Part shown: positions 59,338 through 64,000 of the stretch, in pieces
How positions within the stretch are numbered: the first letter of the stretch is position 1
Layout of the letters: each line of letters starts with the position of its first letter
DNA from: Cytophagaceae bacterium
GTDB taxonomy: Bacteria; Bacteroidota; Bacteroidia; Cytophagales; UBA9547
Length of the DNA: 64,000 nucleotides
Direction: 5' to 3'
Assembly (NCBI GenBank): GCA_027488865.1
Contig: JAIYAU010000034.1
Coordinates: 124,001 to 188,000, forward strand
Notes under the pieces: generated by a model
Told to the model about the DNA's origin: nothing
The model's database searches: none
What the model saw: the letters and a program-made list of their open reading frames with translations, nothing else
Program-made: the position numbers and the translations under genes

Positions 59338-59694
59338 CTAAACTACCTTACCATTACTACTTATAATCAACAAACTAAAAAGTATAACTATCGCTAGGAG
59401 TGGGGTATTAATTAATACATACAAGCTGTCATTAACAGTGTAGGGTAGAAAATGTAGTAAACGATTGAAACCAAAAATTGAAATAAAAAATACATAAATT
59501 CCAGTAAAGAACAAGATGGTTCTTTTGCTTTTTGTAATCAAGGAGAAAGAAACTAAACTTAAACCCAGTTTAACCACTAATAATAGAATAAACAACGGAG
59601 TTGTAGGCCTACCAAATGCCTTAACACATAAATAATCGCTAATAAAAAAACCAAGAAGAATTAAAAAAGAGGAAACGACTTTAAACTTTTGCAA
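59338..59694 (-). CDS. exosortase-associated small membrane protein
   Basis: This 118-residue protein has about four TM helices (VVSSFLILLGFFISDYLCV, PLFILLLVVKLGLSLVSFSLI, ILFFTGIYVFFISIFGF, LLAIVILFSLLII). It starts at TTG 59694, overlapping the 3' end of the exosortase gene by 14 bases. Small membrane proteins in this position accompany exosortases in Bacteroidetes (XrtF/XrtX-type systems). Its role, perhaps stabilising or regulating the protease, is inference. Confidence 0.75.
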   Translation of the reverse strand: MQKFKVVSSFLILLGFFISDYLCVKAFGRPTTPLFILLLVVKLGLSLVSFSLITKSKRTILFFTGIYVFFISIFGFNRLLHFLPYTVNDSLYVLINTPLLAIVILFSLLIISSNGKVV

Positions 59695-60220
59695 TTTTTT
59701 GAGATGTCTTTTGAAACCATAGATACCATATCCAGAACACTAGAAAATACACAGAATATAAAAAGAGGTATTTATGATTAAAATCAAAAGTGCTTGGCCA
59801 AAATTTGTAATTAATTGCAAGAAGTCCTATTCTTAAGACATTGAGCATAAATACAAAAAACATGGATAAAGGTATGAACAACAGCTTATTGACCAAGGCC
59901 GTTGGGGTAGAAAAAATAAAAGCAAGGATAAGACCTAAAAAACCCACACCATTACAGGGTGAGCCAATATTAACAACATTGACACCATCAATAAATATGC
60001 GATCTACTTCGTTGGTGGAGTTTAGCCCCATAATCGACAAAAGGGTGGCGGTAGAATGTGCTAAATACTCATTGAGTACGAACATGTAACTCTGAGAGTT
60101 TACCCATTCGTACATGGCATAGTCCCAGACAAAATAAAAGACGATAAGTTTAAAAACAAAGAGCCCATAAGTATATTGGGCTCTGTTGTTATTAATCCAT
60201 TGCTTAGTTTTTTCTAGCAT
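59681..60220 (-). CDS. exosortase (XrtX/XrtF-type)
   Basis: This 179-residue polytopic membrane protease/transpeptidase has about six TM segments and the catalytic triad of exosortases: Cys89 in NIGSPCNGVGFLG, Arg130 in MLNVLRIGLLA and His149 in FDFNHKYLFLY. It should cut the C-terminal sorting signal of its substrate. It lies directly after the PID-CTERM-like gene (17-base overlap) and overlaps the small membrane-protein gene (14 bases). A short-form Bacteroidetes exosortase is the best match; the exact subfamily cannot be fixed from one sequence. Confidence 0.88.
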   Translation of the reverse strand: MLEKTKQWINNNRAQYTYGLFVFKLIVFYFVWDYAMYEWVNSQSYMFVLNEYLAHSTATLLSIMGLNSTNEVDRIFIDGVNVVNIGSPCNGVGFLGLILAFIFSTPTALVNKLLFIPLSMFFVFMLNVLRIGLLAINYKFWPSTFDFNHKYLFLYSVYFLVFWIWYLWFQKTSQKIAKV

Positions 60221-60389
60221 CCAAGATTTTCTTAAGACCTACAACAATGCCAGCACCAGCCAAAAGACTCAAGCCTCCATCAAATGGAACAGCAGGTGGC
60301 GGTGGTGGTGGACCTTGTGCAAACAAAGACGCAACTGGAACACAACATAACATAACCAATATAATTGGGAGATTTTTCAAATTTTTCAT
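60204..60389 (-). CDS. PID-CTERM-like minimal exosortase substrate
   Basis: This 61-residue protein starts at the ATG at 60389 (an in-frame upstream extension to 60425 adds an unlikely 12 residues). Residues ~1-24 are a signal peptide (ending VASLFA). The mature part is only ~37 residues: a Pro-rich stretch GPPPPPPAV, then the sorting signal PFDGG (35-39), a hydrophobic TM segment LSLLAGAGIVVGL, and a basic tail KKILDARKN. This is the PID-CTERM-type layout (P-x-D-G-G, TM, positive tail). It overlaps the exosortase gene by 17 bases, so it is almost certainly its dedicated substrate. There is essentially no passenger domain. Confidence 0.82.
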   Translation of the reverse strand: MKNLKNLPIILVMLCCVPVASLFAQGPPPPPPAVPFDGGLSLLAGAGIVVGLKKILDARKN

Positions 60390-60417
60390 TTTTGTAGTTT
60401 TTGGATATTTTGAAATC

Positions 60418-60449
60418 AAAGCCATCCGTTAAAATTGACGGATGGCCTT
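60418..60449 (-). terminator. terminator between the T9SS adhesin gene and the PID-CTERM gene
   Basis: GCCATCCGT (60421-60429), loop TAAAATTG, ACGGATGGC (60438-60446): a perfect 9-bp stem just after the adhesin stop (60457). The T-run after it is poor (CTTTGATTT), so read-through into the PID-CTERM gene is possible. Confidence 0.7.
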
Positions 60450-60456
60450 GTTAATA

Positions 60457-63400
60457 TTATTGAATAACGATTTTAGTAGCAATAGATTTGCCTTGGTTGG
60501 TAGCATTTACAATGTAAATACCAGCAGACTTATTTGACAAGTTGATGTCAAATAAACCGTTTCCTGCCTTACGAGCAACTACTTGACCAGCTAAATCATA
60601 AACAACTACTTCACTTGGAGTTGAGGTATTTACATATACCATTTTATCAATGCCATATACTTGGAATGTTGCATCATTTTGAGCATCAATTCCAGTTACT
60701 TTTGCATTATTAAAGTGAAGTGCAAAACGTTGGTTATTTTTAGTAGCAGCAGAGCTAAAAGTATAAACTGGATTAGCCTTTAAGTCAATAAACTTGGCTA
60801 ATGTTTTATCTTCTAAGCTTACAGATGCTTCTTCAAGTGCCACTAAGGAATCTAACTTTAAAGTATAAACACCTGCTACACTTGCATCGTATCCTAATTG
60901 TACAGCTTTGTTAGCTGCCAATGGTGATAAAATATTGATCGCAAAGTCATACTCGTTATTGCTAATTTTAGAGAATAACTGAAGAATGGTATTACCTTTT
61001 AGCTTATAAGCATCGTAGTTAACCTCGAAATTATCAGAAGCATCATCGCGGAACTCTATTTGAGTTTTATCTACCAAAGAAGAAGGATTTACCAAAGACA
61101 CATATGCTTTAGGATTATTACCTTCACGAACTAAAGCACCACCTGTATTACTTCTCATTGCATTGGTATAACTCACCGCACCAGCAGCAGTTGCTTGTAC
61201 AAAAAACCCTTGACTGCTTGGAATCACTCCTGAGTTAAGTGTATTGTAGTTTGTGCCATTCCAAAGATAAACACCAGCACCTGCTATTCTTGTTGAATTT
61301 CCTGAAAGAAAGGTAGTTACCGTGATAGCAGAAGGATAAGGATTACCAAGTAAGTTCCAACCGTTTGTTGCAGCACTTTGTGTATTAGTTAAGGTAAGCA
61401 AAGTTGGGGATAAAGTACCATTGTTAACAGTACCAGCAAAAGATACCGAACCTGAACCACCACCAGCATATCCTAAACCTGTAGTCATTGCTCCACTTGC
61501 AGTTACCCAACCAGAAGTATAGTCGGTAGCATTTCTACCATTTTCTGCATAGCGGTATATTGGACCACTTATAGAAGACAAATTGCCTGAAGAGATTGGC
61601 GAAGAAAGATAACTGTAAGTACCAGCTCCAGCAAGATTACGTTGTACTATATAAGATCCAGTTCCTGCAAAATTGTTAACACTACCCATTACAGTTCCAG
61701 TATTACCAATAGTCATTAATCCGTTGTTCGTAAGTGTTCCAGTACTAGAGAAATTGAAAACCCCATTTATTGTACTAGCCCCTGTGATTGTTGTATTAAC
61801 TGAGGTCCCAGACAGTGTTAATGAAGAACCAGCATCAATAATTATCCCAGCAAATTGAGCCGCAGAAGTGGAACTATTGCTTGAGTTGTTAGTAAATCTA
61901 GCAATTGGGAATGTTCTTCCAGCAGTTGAGAACCCACTATTAGAACGATAAACCATAGTACTTGCAGGATTAAATGCGACCACTGATGCCGGTGCGCTTA
62001 AAGCAAAAGGATTTGCACCTGCATTGTTATGTGTGTAAGTTGCTCCAGCATTAAACACGATTGAATTTGCCGTACCAGCACCAAATGCATTACCTGCGAA
62101 AAAAGAACCTACTGTAAATGTTCCTGTACTTGTAAAGGTGATCCCTGAAGCATCTGCTGCAGTTAATCTGTGTGCAGCACTAGAGGTTCCGTTAAAAGTA
62201 ATACTACCGTCAACCTTCCCTGTTTCACCAGTAGTAACATTTAAAACAACTGGGTTGGTACCGTTACTAAAAAATGTAAGGCTACTTCCAGCCTCCACTA
62301 CAAAGTCATCACCGGATATTCCGCCATCCACGTTAATGGTGCCACCAGTGCTAGTTGTAGAAAAGGTTGTACTGGCGTTATTTGTCAATTTAAGATGGCC
62401 TACAGTTTGGGAAGTGAAGTCGATATTTACTGTAGCTGTAGGTGTTATGCTACCATTGAAGATTAAAATGTCTGAAGCCAAAACTGTGGTTCTAGCTGGT
62501 GACCAACTGGCGGGAGTTGACCAAGATCCTGAACTTACATTCCAAGTATAACTGAAATTAGAAGCAATTGAAATAGGTGCACTTGTAGCTGCATCGGTTA
62601 AGCCGCTCGTAGAAGCATTAATAGTATAACTACCAGCCTGATTAAAAGAAATATTACTAAATGTTGCTATTCCCGCTACTGCCGCCACGGTTGCTGTTCC
62701 CCCAAGTACTCCTGGGCCTGAAACCTTGTTTATTGTAATGTTTCCAGTAAAGCTATTATCCACCGTAGCACCGGAAGTTTGTGCTTCAACTGTGAAAGAT
62801 GCTAAAGAAGAAGAAGTCAACGCTGCGGTTGGAACATTCTTTAAAACCAAGTTTGTAGCAACATCTTGAACAGTAAAAGTGGCTGAAGTACCTGTCGATA
62901 ATACATCACCCGATGTTCTAGCAGCAATAATAGTGGCTCCTAATTGTGGAGTATTTATTGACAGGCCTGAAAATGAAATAGAATTAGTGCCAGCATTAAT
63001 TGTTCCTGTCAATGTGCCAGACAAGACACCTGTACCACCCAATGAGATAGTTACTCCTGTATTTGAGGTAACTGCCGCAACAGCATTTGTAGCATCTTGA
63101 GATTGAACAGTAACCGTAAATGAGCCATTTTTTACTGGACTTGATGGACTAATAGATGATATTACTAACTTGGTAGGAGCAGCAGCCGAACAATTTACAT
63201 TTAATGGCGCATCAGTTGATATAATGTTAACTGATGTTGTTCCTCCTGTAGGATTAACTGTAATCGCTCCAGATGGCCAAGTTCCATCCAAATCAGTAGC
63301 ACATCCTACGGAGGCCCCTGATGTTATTGATAGCTGGTCAATTTTTCTTACCCCATTTGTGTTGGTATTAGGTATTATCGTATTCCATGCCGCAGCTGTT

Positions 63401-64000
63401 GTACTGTAACCAGTTACAATATTTGCAATCGTTGTACTAATACTTTCAACCACTGTACATGACAAGGGACGACCAGTACCTGCAACGTTATTATACAAGG
63501 TGACAATATTTTTTTCGGTGGCAGATGATGCTCCTTTAATTAATGTTCCATTGTTTGCCCCAGCACTTGCAGACCAAGCCAATACCGTTATCCCTACATT
63601 GGAGGCGTATCTTACTACTTGCGTGGGTGTTGCGGGCAATGCCAATGTTAAGGTTGGGAAAACGATATTTCCAGCCGTAAATCTCGTATTTGTAGTATGC
63701 ACAACACCAAACCAACTAGTATAACTTCCAGAAGCATCGGTGGTAAATGTTTCAAAATTTCCAGCGGTATTAGTATTAGCTGATGTAGAATATGTATACG
63801 TTGATCCAGCGGTATTTATCATCAAGGGATTTCCCGCACCTGACTGGGCAGTTCCAATATCCGTCCCTAAAGCTAAACCTGGAAAGTATCGGTACTGTGT
63901 ATTCGGGTTAAGTCCTGAAACTGTTAATCTAAACATAACAGGAAGTCTAGTATTATTTCCTCCACTAGCCATATATTGTGGTGTTATAACACTTGCAATG
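60457..64000 (-). CDS. giant T9SS-secreted adhesin-like protein (5'-truncated by window edge)
   Basis: This is the C-terminal ~1180 residues of a surface or secreted protein. The reading frame continues past the apparent Met at 63972 to the window edge, so the true N-terminus is outside. It holds several Ig-like/cadherin-like beta domains (FTVEAQTSGATVDNSFTGN, GVTISLGGTGVLSGTLTGTI) and long Thr/Ser/Asn/Ala-rich regions. The last ~80 residues are a T9SS type A sorting domain (TFQVYGIDKMVYVNTSTPSE, VVVYDLAGQVVARK, LSNKSAGIYIVNATNQGKSI, ATKIVIQ). It is therefore exported through type IX secretion and probably anchored or released at the surface. The exosortase cassette follows, with only a weak terminator between. 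Confidence 0.88.
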   Translation of the reverse strand, partial: IASVITPQYMASGGNNTRLPVMFRLTVSGLNPNTQYRYFPGLALGTDIGTAQSGAGNPLMINTAGSTYTYSTSANTNTAGNFETFTTDASGSYTSWFGVVHTTNTRFTAGNIVFPTLTLALPATPTQVVRYASNVGITVLAWSASAGANNGTLIKGASSATEKNIVTLYNNVAGTGRPLSCTVVESISTTIANIVTGYSTTAAAWNTIIPNTNTNGVRKIDQLSITSGASVGCATDLDGTWPSGAITVNPTGGTTSVNIISTDAPLNVNCSAAAPTKLVISSISPSSPVKNGSFTVTVQSQDATNAVAAVTSNTGVTISLGGTGVLSGTLTGTINAGTNSISFSGLSINTPQLGATIIAARTSGDVLSTGTSATFTVQDVATNLVLKNVPTAALTSSSLASFTVEAQTSGATVDNSFTGNITINKVSGPGVLGGTATVAAVAGIATFSNISFNQAGSYTINASTSGLTDAATSAPISIASNFSYTWNVSSGSWSTPASWSPARTTVLASDILIFNGSITPTATVNIDFTSQTVGHLKLTNNASTTFSTTSTGGTINVDGGISGDDFVVEAGSSLTFFSNGTNPVVLNVTTGETGKVDGSITFNGTSSAAHRLTAADASGITFTSTGTFTVGSFFAGNAFGAGTANSIVFNAGATYTHNNAGANPFALSAPASVVAFNPASTMVYRSNSGFSTAGRTFPIARFTNNSSNSSTSAAQFAGIIIDAGSSLTLSGTSVNTTITGASTINGVFNFSSTGTLTNNGLMTIGNTGTVMGSVNNFAGTGSYIVQRNLAGAGTYSYLSSPISSGNLSSISGPIYRYAENGRNATDYTSGWVTASGAMTTGLGYAGGGSGSVSFAGTVNNGTLSPTLLTLTNTQSAATNGWNLLGNPYPSAITVTTFLSGNSTRIAGAGVYLWNGTNYNTLNSGVIPSSQGFFVQATAAGAVSYTNAMRSNTGGALVREGNNPKAYVSLVNPSSLVDKTQIEFRDDASDNFEVNYDAYKLKGNTILQLFSKISNNEYDFAINILSPLAANKAVQLGYDASVAGVYTLKLDSLVALEEASVSLEDKTLAKFIDLKANPVYTFSSAATKNNQRFALHFNNAKVTGIDAQNDATFQVYGIDKMVYVNTSTPSEVVVYDLAGQVVARKAGNGLFDINLSNKSAGIYIVNATNQGKSIATKIVIQ

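Follow-up and report, generated by a model that had tools for sequence, protein, structure and literature searches.

Three genes on the minus strand of the window, the whole 64,000-nucleotide stretch of DNA analysed here, form a compact cassette comprising a passenger-free PID-CTERM mini-protein (60204..60389), an exosortase (59681..60220) and a membrane partner (59338..59694). The genes for the mini-protein and the exosortase overlap by 17 bases and those for the exosortase and the partner by 14 bases, which confirms the overlapping frames described in the initial annotation of this DNA. The frame of the mini-protein reaches 60425 (60204-60425) and would encode 73 residues if started there. 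The ATG at 60389, placed just before the signal peptide, yields 61 residues and is the likelier start because the ATG at 60425 is buried in a strong hairpin, within its 3' arm. The mini-protein consists of a signal peptide ending near FAQ, the stretch GPPPPPPAVP, the motif PFDGG, a hydrophobic segment and a basic tail. It was assigned from its frame and from the NCBIfam PID_CTERM profile (NF046080), against which it scores 28.7 bits for a cut-off of 26 and is thus a member of the family. The partner was identified as an open reading frame (ORF) of 118 residues with a TTG start. It is hydrophobic and gave no family match of note in profile searches. An ORF of at least 70 residues occupies the same position in 46 of 55 exosortase loci, the window included, and most of these products are hydrophobic by eye.

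The exosortase comprises 179 residues and was characterized by profiles, alignment and a tree. It belongs to the exosortase/archaeosortase family (TIGR04178, 41.6 bits, cut-off 23), and the Cys89/Arg130/His149 set first read from the sequence was recovered in an alignment of 50 exosortases drawn from the 55 found in the sampled regions, where Cys89 and Arg130 never vary and His149 is conserved in at least 90%. It would be expected to cleave its substrate and transfer the product. Its score against exosortase X (NF046081) is 113.5 bits, under the cut-off of 170, and in the tree it sits on a very long branch (length 2.06), grouped with the exosortase of locus L041 at a support of 83/52. Because of this score and the long branch, we call it XrtX-like rather than XrtX. 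Judged from its sequence, it appears to be a divergent second copy, and it may be drifting. The other exosortase of the genome, at C5:94187, reaches 172.5 bits and exceeds the XrtX cut-off. The latter has a 166-residue partner and lies among glycan-type genes, including glycosyltransferase-like and methyltransferase-like ones (names given by eye); no PID gene was found beside this locus. A third, exosortase-like match at C38:10629 (25.6 bits to TIGR04178; a 447-residue frame behind a 311-residue frame) is possibly XrtN-like. With its long branch and a score so much lower than that of the second enzyme, the window copy might be a decaying duplicate, the exosortase X at C5:94187 handling the other mini-proteins; yet its three frames are open, the Cys/Arg/His set is intact and the gene overlaps are present, and we consider such decay quite unlikely.

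Upstream of the cassette, on the same strand, lies the gene for a T9SS type A cargo protein (60457..64000), which encodes 1217 residues and extends to 64110, just beyond the window. Its residues 1158-1217 match the type A C-terminal domain (CTD) profile TIGR04183 with 38.6 bits for a cut-off of 23. Between the T9SS stop and the start of the mini-gene, a hairpin at 60417..60450 on the minus strand folds at -21.7 kcal/mol (z -7.43). A weak terminator had been placed here in the initial annotation. The hairpin itself is real, but its minus-strand tail is T-poor and our scan called a terminator on the plus strand only (shuffles gave a mean of 1.0). Such a structure is not general, with 19 of 54 stretches 3' of a T9SS stop folding below -12 kcal/mol. 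In the window, it could set the ratio of the T9SS protein to the mini-protein.

PID-CTERM mini-proteins in the genome and across Bacteroidota

The initial annotation had proposed a one-to-one pairing of enzyme and substrate. This does not hold, as the genome contains four PID-like mini-genes and the second exosortase described above. Of the three further mini-genes, the one on C20 scores over the family cut-off, while those on C44 and C54 score under it; we accepted these two on their motif and position, a choice that is in part circular. A profile of our own, built with all four, revealed no fifth PID-like gene in the genome. Classical PEP-CTERM systems sort many large substrates, and the window enzyme could likewise act as a general sorter of large cargo. 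We rejected this candidate on the basis of genome-wide searches with NF046080 and our own profile, which would miss substrates with another tail: all four PID-like proteins recovered were mini-proteins, and a general role appears extremely improbable.

Absence of cargo is a rule of the PID-CTERM family. A match over the cut-off was observed in 124 of 295 genomes drawn from the class. We fetched 100 regions around the highest-ranking matches and added further copies from some multi-copy genomes, so that the sample is not a random draw; 98 of them surround PID matches and two surround exosortases of the genome studied here. Together with the window, these regions gave 99 PID frames by our own profile, with a median of 76 residues and a maximum of 157, so that the lack of a passenger noted for the window protein is general. 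The one large PID_CTERM match that was followed up (genome G188, C1:2167132) is an MSEP-CTERM protein (TIGR04286, 743 bits); the tail of this protein cross-matches the PID_CTERM model over its cut-off.

The cassette is also often kept across relatives, beyond chance. We examined 80 XrtX loci from named genomes, a set that was found with canonical XrtX and overlaps in its genomes with the first sample. Of these loci, 74 have a PID mini-gene no more than 8 kb away, and in 68 it immediately precedes the exosortase. CWPPPC stands ahead of the motif in many of the mini-proteins at XrtX loci, though not in the window copy. At four loci of family f6 (L100, L111, L130, L131), the PID mini-gene and the exosortase stand behind a gene for about 300 residues whose product is membrane hydroxylase-like by eye. 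The window cassette represents a divergent version of a system that NCBIfam already curates as PID_CTERM and exosortase X; the term PID-CTERM was not found in the literature searched.

T9SS neighbours and the NPYP domain

A side remark of the initial annotation linked the cassette to the neighbouring T9SS gene, and this link proved to be the main result of our analysis. A T9SS gene is located directly upstream (gap of -150 to 300 bases) of 52 of 95 PID genes, compared with 35 of 866 other gene-like ORFs from the same regions (Fisher p 2.6e-36); four frames with less than 1 kb upstream were dropped to reach the 95, two of these do adjoin a T9SS gene, and those two T9SS genes may have been counted in the background of 35. 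The adjacency is observed in 21 of 31 families and 39 of 78 genomes. In the genome studied here, all four PID-like genes have a T9SS type A gene as their nearest upstream neighbour on the strand, with gaps, measured by frame ends, of 67 bases in the window, 11 at C20, 0 at C44 and about 350 at C54, the last of which fails our adjacency rule. The 43 PID genes without a T9SS gene directly upstream count against the companion role that we propose below.

The T9SS proteins found next to PID genes share a domain of about 270 residues just before the CTD, which we named NPYP after its GNPYPS motif. In the window, this domain was located by profile and sequence comparison at 60718..61488 on the minus strand. 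It is present in 50 of 54 PID-adjacent T9SS proteins, the four others being ORFs of 167 to 462 residues, versus 7 of 36 non-adjacent ones from the same regions, with NPYP and T9SS profiles that were iterated on this same ORF set and seeded from this genome. The corresponding counts in the overlapping named set are 25 of 29 and 7 of 20. The pairing of mini-genes with NPYP-type T9SS proteins is thus well supported. CTD subtype was considered as the common factor and set aside: the PNP motif occurs in 20 of 54 PID-adjacent and 26 of 36 non-adjacent CTDs, and NPYP separates the two groups better. The 4.3 Mb genome has at least 149 T9SS CTD matches (150 of 225 candidates were scored), among which six NPYP proteins were found. 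Four of the six genes precede the four PID-like mini-genes, both PID genes over the cut-off sitting directly behind NPYP genes, and the other two are without a mini-gene behind them. Single inheritance of one orthologous operon is weakened as an explanation by the number of families that show the adjacency and by its occurrence at several NPYP proteins of a single genome.

Sequence comparison revealed that NPYP is common to RemA and RemZ of F. johnsoniae. The NPYP profile matches RemA with E 3.2e-41 and RemZ with E 1.4e-40, and the window domain alone matches them at 3e-11 and 7.3e-10, which makes it a RemA/RemZ-type domain. By analogy with RemA, drawn from this single domain, the window T9SS protein may be an adhesin. 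The first half of NPYP is similar to part of the fimbrial protein Mfa5 (E 1.2e-8). No named family was assigned from NCBIfam (12 families, best E 0.0017) or Pfam (7 families, best E 0.012), where every match concerns one of 32 members and was taken as chance. AlphaFold modelled the window domain with confidence (mean pLDDT 86.6, pTM 0.66), but the model gave no confident fold match in the PDB (Foldseek best E 0.35; VIA best Z 4.6); the folds listed may be common arrangements, and the absence of a match excludes no family.

The arrangement of these genes bears on what the mini-protein does. An exosortase lies directly downstream of 42 of the 95 PID genes, and 18 have both a T9SS gene upstream and an exosortase downstream. 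Placed directly before the enzyme in the 68 named loci, the mini-protein could license the exosortase or help it to fold, its T9SS neighbour being incidental. However, 34 of the 53 PID genes that do not adjoin an exosortase are preceded by a T9SS gene, and NPYP and exosortase are co-inherited (see below); we judge this role very unlikely. The released peptide could also be a free signal, or pheromone, of T9SS or surface state, as a small Pro-rich product, predicted export and an operon-like array might suggest. Against this, the copies multiply with the NPYP/T9SS genes, as would be expected of companions: 5 of 5 PID copies in G240, 4 of 5 in G058 and 3 of 3 in G188 lie directly behind T9SS genes. 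The comparative data favour a companion of the T9SS protein over a free signal, to which we give only a small chance.

Exosortases and NPYP also occur together at the level of genomes. Among the 295 genomes, 164 have both, 8 an exosortase only, 20 NPYP only and 103 neither, where an exosortase is counted by the XrtX profile at E 1e-8 or better, which also matches other exosortases, and NPYP numbers per genome are minimum values among at most eight matches listed for each. Stratification by family gave an odds ratio of 23 (p 1.7e-9, 12 informative families), species being treated as independent within families. Scored by family majority, the same four classes number 40, 1, 3 and 29. T9SS presence was rejected as the cause of this co-occurrence because SprA is nearly universal (286 of 295 genomes).

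Some mini-genes of related type are also found in genomes where a PID match is weak or absent. A CTERM-type mini-gene was observed behind 2 of 23 NPYP genes in such genomes: in G014 and G215, the NPYP gene is overlapped by the gene of a mini-protein with the variant VPI[TS]G, and the other 21 have none of this type. At 30 further NPYP loci from 15 PID-poor genomes, a CTERM-type mini-gene lies directly behind seven (one each in G009, G165 and G231, two each in G203 and G280). In four genomes of family f43, counting one more locus in G114, six mini-proteins of P[LV]D type stand behind 13 NPYP matches, and the exosortases of G203 and G231, the two of these genomes that were scanned, exceed the exosortase Y cut-off. 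Among XrtF genomes, one of the two loci read in G165 has a CTERM-type mini-gene, and none was seen at the four NPYP loci read in G065 and G247. NPYP proteins outnumber mini-genes, so that one mini-gene would serve several NPYP proteins, or some NPYP proteins would work without one. These bare NPYP loci speak against the companion role proposed below, as do the two NPYP genes of the present genome that lack a mini-gene, the 20 genomes with NPYP only and the long branch of the window exosortase.

Small proteins of another kind are found at three loci of G272 and G134 (L338, L339, L352), where NPYP genes are followed by genes for proteins of 51-58 residues whose N-terminal part includes a hydrophobic segment and whose end is rich in Pro; two carry SPEPPG and none has a CTERM tail. 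In G172 (L307), a row of NPYP-type T9SS genes includes two that are followed by similar ORFs of 48-50 residues with a hydrophobic N-terminus. The three proteins of G272 and G134 would suit a model in which the small membrane protein works as a whole, ahead of cleavage or with none: it would guide or gate the T9SS protein at the inner membrane, and the exosortase would serve only to clear it away later. So would the PID tails themselves: in an alignment of 15, the Pro and Asp of the motif are invariant, and the hydrophobic segment likewise has one invariant Leu, one invariant Gly and a nearly invariant Ala. An exosortase with invariant Cys and Arg that is co-inherited with NPYP suggests, on the other side, that processing matters, and we consider the model of a whole-protein escort unlikely.

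Proposed role of the cassette

We propose that the cassette makes a short surface peptide that would be the dedicated companion of the upstream RemA-type T9SS protein, a reading whose chance we put a little short of even. Sec would export the mini-protein, and the signal peptide would be removed. The exosortase would then cut near P-F-D-G-G and pass a short Pro-rich peptide (about GPPPPPPAVP) to an acceptor in the envelope, a step with which the partner protein may help; the cleaved peptide would be the product. T9SS would deliver the large protein to the surface, where its NPYP domain might dock on the presented peptide, or be retained or licensed by it, peptide and domain acting together. 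In a broader form of this proposal, exosortases X and Y, and perhaps F, would mainly install short, often Pro-rich peptides that dock or anchor one class of T9SS proteins, with NPYP as the receptor; we hold this generalization to be somewhat doubtful.

If this broader proposal is true, two separate surface-sorting systems converge on a single site, and these mini-proteins are the exosortase substrates that are missing in many Bacteroidota. The mini-proteins and one T9SS class are tied by position and co-inheritance, which offers a concrete explanation of how exosortase mutants could come to resemble T9SS mutants. Domain, peptide and enzyme are each named and can be tested together.

Comparison with known systems

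The window cassette shares with the PID-CTERM/exosortase X system (NF046080, NF046081) the tail motif, the size of the mini-protein and the order mini-protein-exosortase-partner. It differs by an exosortase that scores below the XrtX cut-off and by a mini-protein that has PFDGG and is without CWPPPC. Exosortase Y and XrtF (NF046083, TIGR04128) are likewise Bacteroidota exosortases from genomes with NPYP proteins, but they correspond to other enzyme models and to the tail motif P[LV]D, mostly PLDTW, and most NPYP loci read in XrtF genomes are without a local mini-gene. The XrtN/VIT and MSEP-CTERM pairs (TIGR04477, TIGR04286) have one dedicated substrate per exosortase, and these substrates are large, unlike the window mini-protein. 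PEP-CTERM substrates are usually larger secreted proteins. As far as the sections of the source considered here describe it, the PEP-CTERM/EpsH system resembles the window cassette in its motif, hydrophobic segment, basic tail and membrane exosortase (PMC7468200).

In F. johnsoniae, according to the sections of the report used here, deletions of xrtF and of its partner cause a loss of biofilm and zorbs as do deletions of porU, porV, porZ and sprA (PMC10936215). The same sections describe two deletions outside T9SS and exosortase that lose biofilm and zorbs too; the phenotype is therefore not specific, and its sharing by xrtF and T9SS mutants fits a shared pathway without being proof of one. 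They also name exosortase substrates as future work (PMC10936215). The window T9SS protein has the same pre-CTD domain and type A CTD as RemA and RemZ of F. johnsoniae (PDB 8gl6, 8gl8; PMC10994853), the comparison covering these two parts. The word exosortase is absent from the RemA/RemZ paper, and the pairing of a PID cassette with NPYP-type T9SS proteins was not found in the portions of the exosortase literature covered by our search. This kind of system is already described in profile collections, and the new part is the tie of the PID cassette to RemA-type T9SS proteins.
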